64,000 bases of DNA from Gemmatimonadota bacterium (GTDB lineage Bacteria; Gemmatimonadota; Gemmatimonadetes; Palauibacterales; Palauibacteraceae). Shown here piece by piece: positions 35,576-44,339 of this stretch. How positions within the stretch are numbered: position 1 is the stretch's first letter; each line of letters begins with the position of its first letter. The translations under genes were made by a program, and so were the position numbers. The notes beneath the pieces were generated by a model. It did no database searches and was not told where the DNA came from. It saw only the letters and a program-made list of their open reading frames with translations. The stretch lies in contig JAJDUL010000061.1 of NCBI GenBank assembly GCA_022826685.1, forward strand, positions 1 through 64,000, written 5' to 3'.

Positions 35576-35650
35576 TGGGCGAAGAGGGATTCGAACCCCC
35601 GACCTCCTGCTTGTAAGGCAGGCGCTCTGAACCGGCTGAGCTATTCGCCC
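35576..35650 (-). tRNA. tRNA-Val (anticodon UAC)
   Basis: The minus strand folds as a cloverleaf. The acceptor stem is GGGCGAA with TTCGCCC, the D-arm starts TAGCTCAGC, and the anticodon stem CCTGC/GCAGG encloses the loop CTTACAA, with anticodon TAC (UAC) for valine. The T-loop is GTTCGAATC, and the discriminator base is A. The 3' CCA is not encoded (TTG follows). Length is 75 bases. Confidence 0.95.
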
Positions 35651-35993: not shown

Positions 35994-36031
35994 CCACGAT
36001 GGGGGCGCATTCCCGGCGCGCCGGGAGCACC

Positions 36032-37024
36032 TCACGAACTCGCCCGGGCCCATTCCGAGGCCTCCAGGAGCGGCGAAGGCAGCGGCGAGGCGAAGGACAG
36101 CGCCTCGCCGGTCCCGGGGTGCTCGAACGCGAGGTGCGCGGCGTGCAGGAAGAGTCGCCCGGCCCGGCGCCGGAGCTCTCCGGCCCAGCGGCCGCCCGCG
36201 CCGCCGAAGCCGCGTTCCCAGTTCGGCCCGTAGATGGGGTCCGCGACGACCGGGTGTCCGAGCGATCCGAGGTGCACCCGAATCTGGTGCGTCCTCCCCG
36301 TGGCGAGCCGCACGGCGAGCACCTCCGCGGCGTTCCAGCGTTCCAGGCGCTTGAAGTGCGTGACCGCGGGCCGTCCGGTCTCGCGCACGGCCATCCGCTT
36401 CCGGTCGCGCGGGTCGCGCCCGATCGGGCGATCGACCGTGAAGCGCTCCTCGTCGAGGTGTCCCCAGACCGCGGCGACGTACCCGCGCTCGACCTCGCGG
36501 CGGTGGAGCGCGGCGGACAGCGCCCGATGCGCCTCGTCCCGGCGCGCGACGAGCATGAGCCCGCTCGTGTCCTTGTCCAGCCGGTGCACGATCCCGGGCC
36601 GGCGGTCCCCCCCGATGCTCGACAGGCCGCCGAGGTGAAAGAGGAGGGCGTTCACAAGCGTGCCGCCCGGATGGCCGGGCGCGGGGTGGACGACGAGTCC
36701 CGCCGGCTTCTCGACCACCGCGAGGTCGTCGTCCGCGTATCGGACTTCGACGGGGATGTCCTCGGGCTCCAGCCGGGTGGACACCGGAGGCGGCAGGTCG
36801 ATCTCGATCCGATCTCCCGCCCGCGGCCGATACCGCTTCCTCGGGACCTGTCCGTCGACGGTCACCCGGCCGTCGGAGATGAGCTGCACGACCCGGGCCC
36901 GGCTCAGCGAGAGACGTTCGGCCAGCAGGCGGTCGAGCCGGTCGCCGGTCGCGTCCTCGCCCTCGCAGATCTCGATGAGCCGCCGCCCGCCCGCACCCTC
37001 CGCATCGGATTCGGGCGGACTCAC
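36032..37024 (-). CDS. rluD: RluD/RluA-family 23S rRNA pseudouridine synthase
   Basis: This 330-residue enzyme isomerises uridine to pseudouridine in structured RNA. An S4-like RNA-binding domain (about 27-75, L-S-L-S-R-A-R-V-V-Q-L-I-S-D-G) precedes the catalytic domain with H-R-L-D-K-D-T-S-G-L-M (the catalytic Asp lies in H-R-L-D), the G-R-T-H-Q-I-R-V-H motif and L-H-A-A-H-L. S4-domain fusion suggests RluD (positions 1911/1915/1917), though RluA-family specificity is uncertain by eye. GTG 37024 is one base after the lspA stop, so it is in the ileS operon. Confidence 0.92.
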   Translation of the reverse strand: MSPPESDAEGAGGRRLIEICEGEDATGDRLDRLLAERLSLSRARVVQLISDGRVTVDGQVPRKRYRPRAGDRIEIDLPPPVSTRLEPEDIPVEVRYADDDLAVVEKPAGLVVHPAPGHPGGTLVNALLFHLGGLSSIGGDRRPGIVHRLDKDTSGLMLVARRDEAHRALSAALHRREVERGYVAAVWGHLDEERFTVDRPIGRDPRDRKRMAVRETGRPAVTHFKRLERWNAAEVLAVRLATGRTHQIRVHLGSLGHPVVADPIYGPNWERGFGGAGGRWAGELRRRAGRLFLHAAHLAFEHPGTGEALSFASPLPSPLLEASEWARASS

Positions 37025-37025
37025 T

Positions 37026-37565
37026 TCACTCGGGGGTCGCCTCCGCCGCCGCAGCCGCCACCTCCCTCTCGCGCCGGCCCTCGAGCCAGAACGAGATCAG
37101 CAGCAGCACCGCACCGACCGTCACGGCGGAATCCGCGATGTTGAAGATGGGGAAACGGCTCGCACCGATGCCGAAGTCGAGGAAGTCGACGACGCCGGCT
37201 TCCAGCCGGATGCGATCCCAAATGTTGCCGAGCGCGCCGGCGGATACGAGGGAGATGGCGAGGATGCGAAGCCGGTCGGAGGACGGGGTGCCGCGGTAGA
37301 TGATGCCGAGCACGCCGAGCGCGATCAGGGAGAGAACGAGAAAGAAGATCCGTGAATGTTCGCCGATGTCGAGCCCGAAGGCCGCGCCGCGGTTGTGCGT
37401 GTAGGTGAAGCGGAAGAAGTCGCCGATCACCGGGGTCCGCTCGTACAGTTCGAACGTGTTCATGACCCACGCCTTGGTCACGATGTCCAGCGCGAGGATG
37501 ACGACGATCGGAACGAGCGTCAGCCAGAGGCGGACGGCGAGATCGCGTCCGGGAGCTTCAGGCAC
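37026..37565 (-). CDS. lspA: Lipoprotein signal peptidase
   Basis: LspA is the inner-membrane aspartyl protease that removes signal peptides from prolipoproteins after diacylglyceryl modification. The 179-residue product has four hydrophobic segments and the family motifs N-R-G-A-A-F-G, G-A-L-G-N-I-W-D-R and the catalytic aspartates in V-V-D-F-L-D and F-N-I-A-D-S (D145). GTG 37565 lies inside the 3' end of the dksA-like gene (8-base overlap). The ileS-lspA linkage is widely conserved, and here a DksA/TraR gene is inserted between them. Confidence 0.95.
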   Translation of the reverse strand: MPEAPGRDLAVRLWLTLVPIVVILALDIVTKAWVMNTFELYERTPVIGDFFRFTYTHNRGAAFGLDIGEHSRIFFLVLSLIALGVLGIIYRGTPSSDRLRILAISLVSAGALGNIWDRIRLEAGVVDFLDFGIGASRFPIFNIADSAVTVGAVLLLISFWLEGRREREVAAAAAEATPE

Positions 37566-37944
37566 CCGTCTCCTCCTTCTCCTTGCACCGGATGCAGAGC
37601 CGCGCGTGCGGGAGGGCGTCGAGCCGCTCGAAGCTGATCTCCTCGTCGCAGTCCTCGCACCTTCCGAATTGCTCCGGGTTCCGATAGAGCCGCCTCAGCG
37701 CCTCGTCGATGTGGTAGAGCAGCCGACCCTCCTTGCTCGCGAACAGGAACGCCTTCTCGCGCTCCATGGCGTCCGTCCCCTGGTCCGCCATGTGGAAGCT
37801 GTAGGCGGCCAGATCGCTGTCCGCCCCCTGAAGGGAACTCGTGAACGAGTCGTCGTACTGGCCGAGCTCCCGCGTCGCGCGCGCCCGGGCCGCCAGCAGT
37901 CTCTTCTCGATGTGCTTCCGTTGTTCCGCGTTCATCCTTCTCAA
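37558..37944 (-). CDS. DksA/TraR-family C4 zinc-finger protein
   Basis: This 128-residue protein has an N-terminal coiled-coil (residues ~5-75) and a C-terminal C4 zinc finger C-E-D-C...C-I-R-C (about 94-120). DksA proteins enter the RNA polymerase secondary channel and tune transcription with ppGpp. This shorter form resembles the TraR/YocK-type regulators often encoded between ileS and lspA. The start may be TTG 37944, which overlaps the ileS stop (TTGA), or ATG 37935 three codons later. The acidic pair at the coiled-coil tip (Q-G-A-D-S-D) is compatible with an active DksA-like role. Confidence 0.9.
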   Translation of the reverse strand: MRRMNAEQRKHIEKRLLAARARATRELGQYDDSFTSSLQGADSDLAAYSFHMADQGTDAMEREKAFLFASKEGRLLYHIDEALRRLYRNPEQFGRCEDCDEEISFERLDALPHARLCIRCKEKEETGA

Positions 37945-40900
37945 GCGCGTTCGTCGACCCCGCCGATTCCGATGCGGACCTCGACGTCGTCGATCTTCAC
38001 CACGGCCGTACTCAGGCCTCCCCGGGGGACCGACCCCGTCTGCACTTCCACGGCCAGCGTCTCGCCGGCAACGTAGGCCGCATGCGCCGACACGGCCCGT
38101 TCCAGATCCTGCGGGCCCGCCACGCCGAGGCGGATGCGATCGGCGACTTCGAGCCCCGCATCGCGCCGCAGCCGCTGGACGCGGTTCACGATCTCCCGCG
38201 CGTAACCTTCGGCTCGCAGCGCATCATCGATCTCGGTATCCAGGGCCGCGAGGTAACCGCCTCCCGTCGCCACGGCGAGATCGGTGAGCGTCTCCTCCTG
38301 AATCACGAGGTCTTCGGGCGACACCTGAACCCGTTCGCCTCCGATCTCGATGTCGAGCGGCTCCCCGTCCCGGAGCCTTCTCAGGGCTACCGCATCCAGA
38401 TCCGCGATCCCGGCCGCGACGGTCGGCGTGCGCGCTCCGTGTTTCGGACCCAGCGCCCCGAAGCGCGGCTTCGCGTATAGCCGGGTAAGATCTTCGCTAT
38501 CCCCCAGCGACACAACCTTTTTAACGTTGAGTTCTTCCATCGCAAGCGCCGCCATCGGGGCCGCGAGCGCCCGTCCCTCCGGCAGAACCGCATGCAGCGT
38601 CTGCAGCGGCTGCCGAATCCGGACCCCCGCCTTTTCCCGTGCGGCGCGGCCCAGCGCCACCAGGCGCCGGACATCGTCCATCGCCTGTTCGAGTTCGGAC
38701 TCCGAATGCCCTTCCGGCTCCGGGAAGTCCGCCAGGTGGACGGATGCTTCGTCCGTGAGCGCCCGGTACAGCCAGTCGGACATGAACGGGGCGTACGGGG
38801 CGAGCAGCCGCGCGGTCGTGGCGAGACATTCGTGGAGCGTCGCGAAGGCGTCGGCGCTCGCGGCCTCGGTCCCCGGTTGCGTCGCCCAGAAGCGGTCGCG
38901 GCTCCGGCGCACGTACCAGTTCGACACGTCGTCGAGCACGAACTCCTGGATGGCGCGCGCCCCGGCCGTGAGGTCGAACGACTCCAGCGCTTCCCCCACG
39001 AGCCGCACGACCCGGTCGAGGCGGGCGAGCACCCAGCGGTCGAGGTCGCTTCGGTCGGAGACAGGGGCCGCAGGGGACGCGGCGTGGGACCACCCCTCTT
39101 CGTTCGCGTAGAGGGCGAAGAAGCGGTACGTGTGGCGGAGCGTGGCGAACAGCTTGCGGTCGGTCTCGCGCAGCGCCGACGGGTCCCACCGCTTCGGTAC
39201 CCAGGGGTTGGACCCCGAGAGGAAGTAGAAGCGCGTGACATCCGCCCCGTACGTGTCGAGCGCGTCGCGCGGATCCACCGCGTTGCCCCGCGACTTCGAC
39301 ATCTTCCGTCCCTTTGCGTCGAGCACCTGGTCGTTGACGACGACGGCCCGGAACGGTGCGCGGTCGAAGAGGATGGTGGACAGCGCGAGGAGCGAGTAGA
39401 ACCAGCCGCGCGTCTGGTCGACGCCCTCGGCGATGTAGTCGGCCGGGAAGTAGCGCTCGAAGGTTTCCCGGTTCTCGAACGGATAGTGCCACTGGGCGTA
39501 GGGCATGGAGCCGGAGTCGAACCACGCGTCGGCGACTTCCGGGACGCGGCGCATCGTGCCGCAGCATGCGTCGACGGTACAGCACCATTCGTATCCGTCG
39601 ATCCCCGGCCGGTGGGGATCGAAGTCTTCGGGCAGGCCGCCGACGCGGCACCCCAGTTCCGCGAAGGATCCGAGCACCTCCCGGTGTTCGCACTCGGAGC
39701 AGAGCCAGATGGGCAGGGGAGTGCCCCAGTAACGCTCGCGCGAGAGCGCCCAGTCGATGTTGTTCTGCAGCCACTCGCCCATGCGGCCGGATCCCGTCTC
39801 GGGCGGATGCCAGTCGATGGACGCGTTGTGCTCGAGCAGGCGCGCCTTCACGGCGGTCGTCCGGATGTACCACGAATCGCGCGCCATGTAGAGAAGCGCA
39901 TCGTCGCAGCGCCAGCAGTGGGGATAGCTGTGTTCATACATCTCGCGCAGATACAGCTGGTCGTGCGCGACGGCCCAGTCGCGGAGCGCGCGTTCGGTCT
40001 CCCGATCCTTCACGTGCATCCCGGCGAGTCCGCCCGGCACGGTGTCGAGAAAGCGCCCGTCCCCGCCGACCGTGTGCTGCATCGGCAGTCCCGCCGCCTC
40101 GCCCAGCCGAAAGTCGTCCTCCCCGTACATCACCGCGGTGTGGACGACGCCCGTCCCCTCATCGACCGTGACGAAGTCCGCCTCCAGCACCGTCCACGCG
40201 GTATCGGAGCCGGCGCCGTCCACCGCGTTCGGGAAGAGCGGGCGGTAGCGCCGCCCGGCGAGTTCGTCGGCGCGCACCTCCCCGATGATCTCGTATGGGT
40301 GCCGCAGCACCTCGGCCACGCGGTCGCGGGCCAGGATGAGCACCTCTCCCGGCGAAGCCCCGCCGGGTCCGTCGTGCGCCCGCGCGGGGGTCGTGCCGCC
40401 GTCCGCGCCCTCGGGCAGCACGCGTACGCGGGCGTAGGGGATGTCGGGCCCCACGGCGAGGCCGAGGTTGCCCGGAAGCGTCCAGGGAGTTGTGGTCCAG
40501 CTCAGGATCCGCGCGGCGTCCGGGTCGTCGACGAGATGGAACTTCATGTAGACCGCGGGCTCGGTCACGTCGCGGTAGCCCTGGGCCACCTCGTGGCTCG
40601 AGAGGCCGGTGCCGCAGCGCGGACACGTCGGGATGACGCGGTACCCCCTGTACAGCAGGCCGCGCTTCTCGATCTCCGAGAGCGCCCACCAGCCCGACTC
40701 GATGAACTCCTTCGAGTACGTGACATACGGGTCGCCGTAGTCCAGCCAGTAGCCGATGTGCCGGGACAGCCGCTCCCAGGCGTCCTGGTAGCGGAACACG
40801 TTGTTCCGGCACTTGTCGTTGAACTTCCGGATTCCGTAACGCTCGATGTCCGGCTTGCCGGAGATGCCGAGCGAGCGCTCGACCTCGAGTTCCACCGGCA

Positions 40901-41165
40901 GTCCGTGGGTGTCCCAGCCCGCCTTCCGCGGCACGTGGTAACCGGACATGGTGCGGTATCGGGCCACCGCGTCCTTGATCGTGCGGGCAAGGATGTGGTG
41001 GACGCCGGGCGCGGCGTTCGCGGTCGGCGGCCCCTCGTAGAACACGAAGTCCGGCGCAGCCGCCCGGGCCGCGAGGCTGCGCTCGAAGGTCTTCTCTTCC
41101 TCCCAGCTTCCGAGGACTTCGGCTTCGAGCCCGCGTACGGACTCCGGTATCGGCCGGTAGGCCAT
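37941..41165 (-). CDS. ileS: Isoleucyl-tRNA synthetase, type 2, with a GxHH active-site motif
   Basis: This class I synthetase charges tRNA-Ile and edits valine. The 1074-residue length and sequence style are those of the eukaryote-like IleRS2 branch rather than the ~940-residue IleRS1. The ATP-binding HIGH motif appears as P-G-V-H-H-I-L (G54-V-H56-H57), a GxHH form instead of HxGH. The editing domain has W-T-T-T-P-W-T-L-P-G-N and the second ATP motif is K-M-S-K-S (621-625). Two Cys clusters are present (C-P-R-C and the C-S-E-C-E-H region). ATG 41165 lacks a strong Shine-Dalgarno. The gene follows divIVA by 78 bases. Confidence 0.97.
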   Translation of the reverse strand: MAYRPIPESVRGLEAEVLGSWEEEKTFERSLAARAAAPDFVFYEGPPTANAAPGVHHILARTIKDAVARYRTMSGYHVPRKAGWDTHGLPVELEVERSLGISGKPDIERYGIRKFNDKCRNNVFRYQDAWERLSRHIGYWLDYGDPYVTYSKEFIESGWWALSEIEKRGLLYRGYRVIPTCPRCGTGLSSHEVAQGYRDVTEPAVYMKFHLVDDPDAARILSWTTTPWTLPGNLGLAVGPDIPYARVRVLPEGADGGTTPARAHDGPGGASPGEVLILARDRVAEVLRHPYEIIGEVRADELAGRRYRPLFPNAVDGAGSDTAWTVLEADFVTVDEGTGVVHTAVMYGEDDFRLGEAAGLPMQHTVGGDGRFLDTVPGGLAGMHVKDRETERALRDWAVAHDQLYLREMYEHSYPHCWRCDDALLYMARDSWYIRTTAVKARLLEHNASIDWHPPETGSGRMGEWLQNNIDWALSRERYWGTPLPIWLCSECEHREVLGSFAELGCRVGGLPEDFDPHRPGIDGYEWCCTVDACCGTMRRVPEVADAWFDSGSMPYAQWHYPFENRETFERYFPADYIAEGVDQTRGWFYSLLALSTILFDRAPFRAVVVNDQVLDAKGRKMSKSRGNAVDPRDALDTYGADVTRFYFLSGSNPWVPKRWDPSALRETDRKLFATLRHTYRFFALYANEEGWSHAASPAAPVSDRSDLDRWVLARLDRVVRLVGEALESFDLTAGARAIQEFVLDDVSNWYVRRSRDRFWATQPGTEAASADAFATLHECLATTARLLAPYAPFMSDWLYRALTDEASVHLADFPEPEGHSESELEQAMDDVRRLVALGRAAREKAGVRIRQPLQTLHAVLPEGRALAAPMAALAMEELNVKKVVSLGDSEDLTRLYAKPRFGALGPKHGARTPTVAAGIADLDAVALRRLRDGEPLDIEIGGERVQVSPEDLVIQEETLTDLAVATGGGYLAALDTEIDDALRAEGYAREIVNRVQRLRRDAGLEVADRIRLGVAGPQDLERAVSAHAAYVAGETLAVEVQTGSVPRGGLSTAVVKIDDVEVRIGIGGVDERA

Positions 41166-41243
41166 GGAGGTGCTCCGTCTGGTTATTCCTGGATGGTCGA
41201 CGCAGTCGTCGGAACGGCGGGCGTGCGCAGCGGGGTGCTGCGG

Positions 41244-41906
41244 TCAGGTCGACGCGGCGCCCGAACCGCCGGCGTCGACCCGGCTAATCGATGGAGGCGG
41301 GGGCTCGGTATTGGACTCCGGAGCGACAGACTCGGCAGCGATGGGCTCGGCAGCGATGGGCTCGGCGGCGGCGACCTCGCGCGCCCCGTCTCCGCTCCCC
41401 CCTCGCAGCCGCTCGATGAACCGGTCGAGATCGCCGGCTCCGTCGCCGAACCGTTCATCCTCGAAGTCGAGGTATTCGTCGAAGCGCTCGAACAGTTTCC
41501 GCAGCGCGGCGAGGAAGCGGCCCCGGGTCGCCTTCAGGTCTTCGATCTTGTCGTGGCAGAGACGGACGGCCCGCTCCGCGTCGGCGAGCACGGCGTCCGC
41601 GCGCATCTCGGCCTCGCGGAGCCGCACGGCCGCGTCGCGCTCGGACTGCAGGCGGGCCTCCTCGCGCAGCTCCTGTGCGGCCAGGAGCGCTTCGTTGAGG
41701 GCCTTCTCGCGGGCCCGGTAGCTCTCCAACTGGTGTTTCTGCTGCTCGATCCGGTCGCTGAGCACGACGTGCTCGCGCACGTGGCGTTCAAGGCAATCCG
41801 CCACAACCGCGAGAAACGCATCGACCTGCTGTGCGTCGTACCCGCGCACGGAACGCCTGAAGTCGTCCTTCTTCTTGCGGACGTCAAGCGGTGTCAGGTC
41901 GATCAT
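41244..41906 (-). CDS. DivIVA-domain protein
   Basis: This is a 220-residue coiled-coil protein of the DivIVA/GpsB type, which senses curved membrane and organises pole or septum proteins. The N-terminal membrane-binding motif is typical (M-I-D-L-T-P-L-D-V-R-K-K-K-D-D-F, then V-R-G-Y-D-A-Q-Q-V-D-A-F-L). A long coiled coil follows (about 30-150). The C-terminus is Ala/Glu/Pro-rich with a duplicated A-A-E-P-I-A-A-E-P unit. The ATG overlaps the yggS stop (ATGA). yggS-divIVA-ileS is a conserved neighbourhood in many phyla. Confidence 0.93.
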   Translation of the reverse strand: MIDLTPLDVRKKKDDFRRSVRGYDAQQVDAFLAVVADCLERHVREHVVLSDRIEQQKHQLESYRAREKALNEALLAAQELREEARLQSERDAAVRLREAEMRADAVLADAERAVRLCHDKIEDLKATRGRFLAALRKLFERFDEYLDFEDERFGDGAGDLDRFIERLRGGSGDGAREVAAAEPIAAEPIAAESVAPESNTEPPPPSISRVDAGGSGAAST

Positions 41907-42601
41907 CTTTCCCCCAGTAGCACCGTGCCGAGTCGCACCCGCGTGCTCCCCTCCTCGATCGCGATCTCGAAATCGTTGCTCATCCCCATCGAGAGCGCCT
42001 CGCCCTTGAACTCCGGAATCTCCGCGCGGCAGCGTTCCAGCAGCCGCGCCGCGCCGCGAAATGCGGGCCGGACCACGTCCTCGTCCGCCGTAAACGGCGC
42101 CATCGTCATCAGCCCGGCCACGCGCAGACGGGGCAGCTCACAGATCTCGGCCACGGCGTCGAGCGCCACGTCCGGGCCCAGGCCGGCCTTCGCCACCTCC
42201 CCCGACGTGTTCACCTGCACGAGCACCTCGACCGGTTCGTGCCGTTCCTCCCCGACGATCCGGTTCAACGTGCTCGCGAGCCGCACGCTGTCCACCGACT
42301 CGACGACATCGAACAACCGGACCGCGCGCCGCGCCTTGTTGCGCTGCAGCCGACCGATCAGGTGCCACGCGACGCCGGGCGTCGCCCCCAGCTCCAACCG
42401 CTTGGCTTCGGCTTCCGGCACCCGGTTTTCGCCGATGCGGCCCACGCCGAGCGCCTTCACGATCTCGATTCCCCCCGCGGGATGCCCCTTCGTCACGGGG
42501 AGGATCTCGACGTCGCTCGCGCGCCGCCCGGCCCGCCTCGCCGCAGCCTCGATGCGCTCTGTCACCTCGGCCAGCCGGGCCGCGACCTGGTCTTTCGTCA
42601 C
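41903..42601 (-). CDS. YggS-family PLP homeostasis protein
   Basis: This 232-residue single-domain protein of the alanine-racemase-like barrel fold binds pyridoxal phosphate and buffers PLP, without known catalysis. The PLP lysine is K38 in L-P-V-T-K. Other family motifs are H-L-I-G-R-L-Q-R-N-K, V-L-V-Q-V-N-T-S-G-E and L-S-M-G-M-S-N-D-F-E-I-A-I. The GTG start at 42601 lies just before the conserved N-terminus and has no visible Shine-Dalgarno. The upstream open extension runs through a terminator and is rejected. It is the first gene of the yggS-divIVA-ileS-dksA-lspA-rluD set. Confidence 0.94.
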   Translation of the reverse strand: MTKDQVAARLAEVTERIEAAARRAGRRASDVEILPVTKGHPAGGIEIVKALGVGRIGENRVPEAEAKRLELGATPGVAWHLIGRLQRNKARRAVRLFDVVESVDSVRLASTLNRIVGEERHEPVEVLVQVNTSGEVAKAGLGPDVALDAVAEICELPRLRVAGLMTMAPFTADEDVVRPAFRGAARLLERCRAEIPEFKGEALSMGMSNDFEIAIEEGSTRVRLGTVLLGER

Positions 42602-42675
42602 GCGGCACAGTCTACGGGCCCGCGCCCGGCGATGCGAGCCATCCGCCGGGGGGTTCGGGCGGCTCCCGGCGGACG

Positions 42676-42718
42676 GAAAAAAGAGAGCGCCCGGCGTCGC
42701 TTTGGCGTCGCCGGGCGC
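42676..42718 (-). terminator. Strong intrinsic terminator after the tonB-like gene
   Basis: An 11-bp perfect stem (CGCCGGGCGCT at 42708-42718 with AGCGCCCGGCG at 42685-42695) is followed on the minus strand by TCTC and six T residues (42681-42676). It closes the long lepB-to-tonB gene run and separates it from yggS. No promoter for yggS is obvious in the 75 bases that follow. Confidence 0.9.
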
Positions 42719-42765
42719 TTGCCGTCGCTTCAGAAGCGGGACGGCCGGTGTCGTGTCTCCGTAAT

Positions 42766-43428
42766 CTAGGTCACCTGGAACGTCACCCACTGGGAGACCC
42801 AGACCGCCGTGACCTTGTCGCGGTTCTTCGCGGGCGTGAACCGCATCTGCTGCACGACTTTCCCCGCCGCCTCGTCGAGCAGGCCGTTACCTGAGGAGGT
42901 CTTCACCTCGAAGTTCTCGACGGCTCCGCCTTCCGTCACGTAGAGCCAGAGTTCGACCCTGCCGCCGATGCCCGCATCCTTCAGCGTGCGCGGATACTCC
43001 CGCTGCAGGATCTGCTGAATCTCACCGCCGTTCAGCATTACGGGAGGCGTGTCGTACGCGATGAAGGACGGCCGGTCCGCCGGACTCCCGGTCTCGGGAG
43101 GCGGGGGCAGGGCGTTATCCGTCGTGAACGACTCGAACGTCGTTTCCGCGATCGTGATGTCCTCGGAGATGTCGACCGAAGCGACCCGCGGGGTGGCCGG
43201 ACGGGCGATCTGTTCCGGCGGCGGCGGGATCTTCACCTCGGGCGGCAACGCCACCGCCTCGATCTCATCGACCACGACGCCCAGGTCCGCCGCCTCGAAC
43301 GGGCGGACGAGGACGAACAGTCCGAAGTGGAGCGTGACGGCAACCAACAACCCGATCTGCGTCCAGTTGGTGCTCGCCCGCTTGAACTGATCGTTCGCGG
43401 TGAGCCGAATTCCGGTCTCTTCCATCAT
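42766..43428 (-). CDS. TonB-family energy transducer
   Basis: This 220-residue protein has one N-terminal transmembrane segment (about 24-42), a proline-rich periplasmic linker (P-P-P-P-E-Q near 67, P-P-P-P-E-T near 110) and a TonB C-terminal domain (about 135-220) with E-Y-P-R-T-L-K-D-A-G-I-G-G-R-V. It should transmit proton-motive force from ExbB/ExbD to outer-membrane receptors. There are two adjacent ATGs (43428, 43425); GGGAGAA precedes them. It is last in the exbB-exbD-exbD-tonB order and is followed by a terminator. No receptor gene is nearby. Confidence 0.92.
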   Translation of the reverse strand: MMEETGIRLTANDQFKRASTNWTQIGLLVAVTLHFGLFVLVRPFEAADLGVVVDEIEAVALPPEVKIPPPPEQIARPATPRVASVDISEDITIAETTFESFTTDNALPPPPETGSPADRPSFIAYDTPPVMLNGGEIQQILQREYPRTLKDAGIGGRVELWLYVTEGGAVENFEVKTSSGNGLLDEAAGKVVQQMRFTPAKNRDKVTAVWVSQWVTFQVT

Positions 43429-43469
43429 TTCTCTCCCGGTCTCCTGAAGCCCGTGGTGTGCTGCTGCTG

Positions 43470-43916
43470 CTAGCGCCGAGCGCGCATCGCGCGCTGCTCG
43501 AGTCGCGTGGCGAAGGTGACGCGCACCGCGCCGGACGCCTGCAGTTCTTCCGTAATCGTATTGATCTGCTGGTAAGGCACTTCGGAGTCGCCGCGAATCG
43601 CGATCACGAGTTCACGGTTCTCCGCGTAGATCGGCCGAACGGTCTCCGAGATGTCCTCGAACGGCGTCAGCACGTCGTTGATCCATACCGAACCGTCGCG
43701 CTGAACCCAGAGGTGGAGGATGTTCTGCCGTTTCTCGTCGATTTTCTCGGTGGCCTCGGCGGTCGTCCACTCGATCTGCCGGTTCCGGTCCTTCCGGAAG
43801 ACGGTCGTGACCATGAAGAAGATGAGAAGGAGGAAGGCGATGTCCGCCATCGAAGAGGTCGGGATCGACCCGTCCGACCCGGACTTTTTCTTGAAGCCGC
43901 TGTCCTTGATGGCCAT
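43470..43916 (-). CDS. ExbD/TolR-family protein (second copy)
   Basis: This 148-residue bitopic protein starts with a basic cytoplasmic tail, then I-P-T-S-S-M-A-D-I-A-F-L-L-L-I-F-F. In that stretch the Asp is the conserved protonatable residue of the ExbD/TolR transmembrane helix. A periplasmic domain follows. It is directly adjacent to the first exbD copy (stop and start abut at 43917/43916). The two copies share the transmembrane segment almost exactly and diverge in the periplasmic part, suggesting a heteromeric ExbD pair rather than a recent duplicate. Confidence 0.93.
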   Translation of the reverse strand: MAIKDSGFKKKSGSDGSIPTSSMADIAFLLLIFFMVTTVFRKDRNRQIEWTTAEATEKIDEKRQNILHLWVQRDGSVWINDVLTPFEDISETVRPIYAENRELVIAIRGDSEVPYQQINTITEELQASGAVRVTFATRLEQRAMRARR

Positions 43917-44339
43917 CTAGTTCTCCATCTCCTGTAGCGAGATTCGCTCGGCGCCCGCCAGCTTCACTTCATCGAGCACGTTGACCATGTGACGGTAGGG
44001 CGCGTTGGGGTGGGTCTGAATGGCGGCGATGAGATTCTCGTTGCCCGCCAGTTCGGTGCGCAGGATGTTCGCCACCTGCGTGTGCGCCACGACCTGTTCC
44101 TGTTCGCTCTCGCCCCGGCGCACGATGACGCGGCCGTCAGGCTGCACGATGAAGAAGATCAGGTTCCGCCCCGAAACATCCTGCTCCTCGGCCTGCTCCG
44201 GGAGCACGATCGGCAGTCCCCGTTCCTCGTTGAACACTGTCGTCGTGAGGAAGAAGACCAGGAGGAGGAACGCGATGTCCGCCATCGAAGAGGTCGGGAT
44301 CTCGTCCGACACCTTCTGCTTGCGTTTCATGATCGCCAT
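43917..44339 (-). CDS. ExbD/TolR-family protein (first copy)
   Basis: This 140-residue protein has the ExbD signature I-P-T-S-S-M-A-D-I-A-F-L-L-L-V-F-F. A lysine-rich N-terminal tail (K-R-K-Q-K) precedes it and a periplasmic beta domain follows it. With ExbB it forms the proton channel that energises TonB. The ATG is at 44339. The 45-base gap to exbB contains no promoter-like element, so co-transcription with exbB is likely. Confidence 0.93.
   Translation of the reverse strand: MAIMKRKQKVSDEIPTSSMADIAFLLLVFFLTTTVFNEERGLPIVLPEQAEEQDVSGRNLIFFIVQPDGRVIVRRGESEQEQVVAHTQVANILRTELAGNENLIAAIQTHPNAPYRHMVNVLDEVKLAGAERISLQEMEN

Follow-up and report, generated by a model that had tools for sequence, protein, structure and literature searches.

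The ileS gene on this contig encodes an isoleucyl-tRNA synthetase (IleRS) whose class I HIGH motif reads G-V-H-H, and the question is whether such a protein can be the working IleRS of its host, whether it resists mupirocin and whether its motif is peculiar to the source organism. In 2023, extreme resistance of IleRS enzymes to mupirocin was traced to the same exchange of residues (PMC10485003). The present analysis adds a tally of the motif across Gemmatimonadota and names the few exceptions. We are highly confident that the IleRS of the window (the whole 64,000-nucleotide stretch analyzed) is the sole housekeeping IleRS and a member of the published G/AXHH type 2 group, predicted to be active and mupirocin-resistant.

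A type 2 IleRS with an exchanged HIGH motif

The ileS reading frame begins with ATG, and the four motif residues are encoded by GGC GTC CAC CAC (Table 1). The first-pass annotation had reported GVHH in place of HxGH and an intact KMSKS, and both readings are exact; a scan of all 1,074 residues found HxGH nowhere in the protein. The first and third HXGH positions are exchanged, as in the sequence definition of the G/AXHH group, and W130 is retained along with most of the catalytic core. In an AlphaFold model (mean pLDDT 87.4, pTM 0.79) helix alpha-1 starts at residue 56, which puts GVHH at the helix tip, where the HIGH motif belongs. All other members of the genus in which the N-terminus could be read carry the same G-V-H-H, most of them at 92-97% protein identity. 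Because these four residues recur in separately assembled relatives, an assembly or sequencing error at this site is vanishingly improbable.

Table 1. Features of the ileS region of the window
Feature	Position	Strand	Evidence
ileS, type 2 isoleucyl-tRNA synthetase, 1074 aa	37941..41165	-	TIGR00392, PDB match 8c8w, Pfam tRNA-synt_1 + Anticodon_1 + DUF5915
GVHH, swapped class I HIGH motif, residues 54-57	40995..41006	-	ORF reading and PDB alignment
KMSKS, intact, residues 621-625	39291..39305	-	residue 621 found; coordinates calculated from ORF start 41165
YggS-like PLP protein (Ala_racemase_N)	41903..42790	-	Pfam PF01168
DivIVA-domain protein, upstream of ileS	41244..41906	-	Pfam PF05103, 97.8 bits
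TraR/DksA-type zinc finger protein, overlapping ileS stop	37558..37944	-	Pfam PF01258
lspA, signal peptidase II	37026..37565	-	Pfam PF01252
RluD-type pseudouridine synthase (S4 + PseudoU_synth_2)	36032..37024	-	Pfam PF00849 + PF01479
tRNA-Val (anticodon tac)	35576..35650	-	
Antisense ORF, 1390 aa	38592..42764	+	

The first-pass annotation had noted that the protein length fits type 2. The assignment stands on other grounds: 1,074 residues alone are weak evidence for type 2, and the real evidence is the DUF5915 C-terminus and the tree. The protein scores 820.3 bits against the NCBIfam equivalog model TIGR00392 (cut-off 621.4). In a sequence search of the PDB, the four entries for Priestia megaterium IleRS2 (PmIleRS2) score highest, at 874-887 bits, against 308-316 bits for PmIleRS1. 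The best of them, 8c8w (887 bits), is an engineered GVHH mutant of PmIleRS2, and its GVHH aligns without gaps with that of the window IleRS. In the alignment to the PDB entries, GVHH falls exactly on the HVGH/GVHH position of PmIleRS2. Foldseek likewise ranks PmIleRS2 structures first, with the hyper-resistant mutant third. Pfam finds DUF5915 at residues 876-1067 and no zf-FPG_IleRS in the window IleRS; among the controls, one IleRS1 from the same phylum has the zinc finger and one canonical IleRS2 has DUF5915. A tree rooted on Gemmatimonadota IleRS1 groups the protein with IleRS2, and the single long-branch warning in that tree concerns the HYGH group rather than the window protein. By sequence, C-terminal domain, fold and tree, the window enzyme is a type 2 IleRS.

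Two smaller features of the reading frame were recorded. At residues 51 and 613, close kin of the window IleRS have TANAAP and NDQ, in contrast to the TANGxP and NDL of most GXHH enzymes, a narrow lineage signature inside the genus. The long antisense frame overlaps the genes upstream of ileS and the N-terminal four fifths of ileS itself, and is most likely a product of GC-rich codon bias and not a gene.

Gene neighborhood and copy number

Six genes follow one another on the minus strand in the order YggS-like, DivIVA, ileS, TraR/DksA, lspA and RluD-type. In housekeeping clusters ileS commonly has divIVA and lspA as neighbors, and a Paenibacillus record likewise has DivIVA, ileS and a TraR/DksA protein together. 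Pfam identified no mobile-element gene among the six, and Rfam gave no match to an RNA leader (T-box or other) in positions 36000-44000. Apart from the tRNA-Val of Table 1, no tRNA gene was found in the window.

The source genome, which is 90.85% complete, contains one locus above the ileS cut-off, and the other synthetase matches in it are ValRS, LeuRS and MetRS by sequence. The search for a second ileS thus bears out the earlier statement that this is the only visible copy; an overlooked second gene is possible though unlikely at that completeness. One locus above the cut-off was found in 16 of the 17 genomes of the genus. The remaining genome (G003) has two, but the second is probably a contaminant, since contamination there reaches 7% and this copy shares only 54% identity with the window enzyme.

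Nothing besides the departure of the motif from the class I consensus would suggest that the window frame is a paralogue that has decayed or been repurposed, its HIGH motif broken. The protein is of full length with KMSKS intact and its catalytic core conserved, it is the only IleRS in the genome and lies in a housekeeping gene cluster, and orthologues 92-97% identical to it occur in most of the genus, so that we judge decay to be extremely unlikely. As the one enzyme found for an essential function, and a conserved one, the window IleRS is predicted to be catalytically active.

Mobility of this allele was also considered and rejected, in that searches of plasmid and phage records yielded only IleRS proteins of less than 60% identity. 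Among these are near full-length IleRS2-like proteins, about 42% identical to the window enzyme, in two human faecal records that are labelled 'Bacteriophage sp.' and lack annotation (MT835484.1 and MT835536.1), perhaps as bacterial DNA inside phage records.

Distribution of the exchange in Gemmatimonadota and beyond

The first count used the DNA pattern EGPP..P-G/A-x-H-H, which matched 268 of 298 Gemmatimonadota genomes, and the 30 genomes without a match were opened singly. Sixteen of these have GXHH with DGPP or with Thr at the second position, three have only a canonical HYGH IleRS2, three have an IleRS1 (one lacking its N-terminus) and four have a gene truncated ahead of the motif; no IleRS was found in the other four. 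GXHH is therefore present in 284 of the 298 genomes, and a readable canonical-type motif stands in its place in five. When the canonical motif was sought as a DNA pattern, the EGPP form matched none of the 298 genomes and the DGPP form (GAY) matched four; a pattern restricted to EGPP gives a misleading null, since HYGH enzymes carry DGPP. One of the four DGPP matches, G043, holds the canonical sequence alongside a GLHH copy. By these counts the GXHH exchange is the near-universal state of the phylum and not peculiar to the source organism.

The exceptions have features of their own. G043 is 99% complete with 1% contamination, and its two IleRS2 genes (L150 and L151), one GLHH and one canonical HYGH, encode proteins about 38-39% identical to the window enzyme. 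One Gemmatimonadota family has IleRS1 in place of IleRS2 (L120 in G044, L119 in G047, L154 in G056 and L157 in G053), and its KMSKS region, where seen, reads AMHKS. The HIGH motif of the G044 enzyme is HLGT, with the fourth His changed (ACG, against CAC or CAT in relatives).

In 80 loci collected from GTDB genomes, the Bacteroidota, Anaerolineae and Clostridia relatives are nearly all GXHH, in a set biased towards GXHH by being picked for similarity to a GXHH query and in which canonical IleRS2 is thinly sampled. In a tree built with the motif residues masked, the window IleRS falls in a Gemmatimonadota clade of 39 rows (SH-aLRT 100), all of them GXHH. The tree requires only four motif changes among its 74 rows, compared with 10.4 by shuffling. 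The motif of the window IleRS is thus inherited phylum-wide.

A candidate second-site partner of the motif was sought near KMSKS, at the residue equivalent to PmIleRS2 His582, which lies eight residues ahead of the KMSKS Lys. The reading there is NDL in most GXHH rows, NDQ in the closest kin of the window enzyme and GH in canonical Bacillales. Because Anaerolineae GXHH enzymes retain LGH and canonical Thermus thermophilus has HGL, this position does not track the motif and is a lineage marker.

These distributions permit a reading in which the exchange is ancient lineage history, kept through inheritance whether or not mupirocin is met today, with resistance as a by-product. The prevalence of GXHH in the phylum and in almost all sampled Bacteroidota and Anaerolineae favors it, as does the small number of motif changes on the tree. 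Selection is not decidable from sequence alone, however, and Brkic et al. (PMC10485003) propose an environmental antibiotic as the selecting force. We consider the chances of this reading to be evenly balanced, and it is compatible with a housekeeping enzyme predicted to resist mupirocin. A narrower proposal, which we hold tentatively and think rather unlikely, is that the ancestral IleRS of Gemmatimonadota already had GXHH, that the motif is fixed and has been maintained by something other than mupirocin (catalysis, temperature or a different inhibitor), and that the rare canonical enzymes (HYGH IleRS2 or IleRS1) or the GLHH and HYGH pair arose by replacement. If so, the phylum would be a natural test of the costs or gains of GXHH.

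Predicted mupirocin resistance and its bearing on the phylum

The first-pass annotation had cited active GxHH variants of IleRS2 with extreme resistance, and the precedent is Brkic et al. 2023 (PMC10485003), who found G/AXHH in 86 of 163 IleRS2 sequences. The natural ALHH enzyme of Deinococcus radiodurans (DrIleRS2) has a mupirocin Ki of 6.6 mM, which drops 823-fold on restoring HVGH, and introducing GVHH into the canonical T. thermophilus and P. megaterium enzymes makes them about 200- to 430-fold more resistant (PMC10485003). The T. thermophilus mutant reaches a Ki of only 35 uM, so the motif alone does not set a millimolar Ki (PMC10485003). The authors showed that the third His assumes the catalytic place of the first, the helix tip being shifted in type 2 enzymes, and argued that this His clashes with mupirocin (PMC10485003).

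The same steps may apply to the window IleRS. Its third-position His would do the work of the usual first His when Ile-AMP is formed, as the shifted tip of helix alpha-1 in type 2 enzymes would permit, and the same side chain would clash with mupirocin, so that the enzyme should stay active and yet resist mupirocin up to a sub-millimolar or millimolar Ki. By analogy with the Deinococcus, Streptomyces and engineered enzymes, the window enzyme is predicted to be hyper-resistant. Its nearest counterpart is the active, hyper-resistant 8c8w mutant (Ki 460 uM), which has the identical four motif residues, although that GVHH is engineered whereas the one in the window is natural, and the two proteins are about 40% identical overall. 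The G/AXHH IleRS2 of D. radiodurans and Streptomyces griseus belong to other phyla (PMC10485003), and the main text of that paper does not mention Gemmatimonadota. The staphylococcal MupA and MupB are also type 2 IleRS; they are plasmid-borne, in contrast to the chromosomal, housekeeping and not acquired ileS of the window. Their NCBIfam models give the window IleRS 779 and 748 bits, below the exception cut-off of 1900, and plasmid MupA is about 36% identical to it.

The window IleRS adds little to the mechanism, and its interest lies in showing that the hyper-resistance motif is nearly fixed throughout a phylum of mostly uncultured bacteria. Given that near-fixation, intrinsic mupirocin resistance is to be expected in Gemmatimonadota, and in metagenomic surveys it should not be read as acquired.
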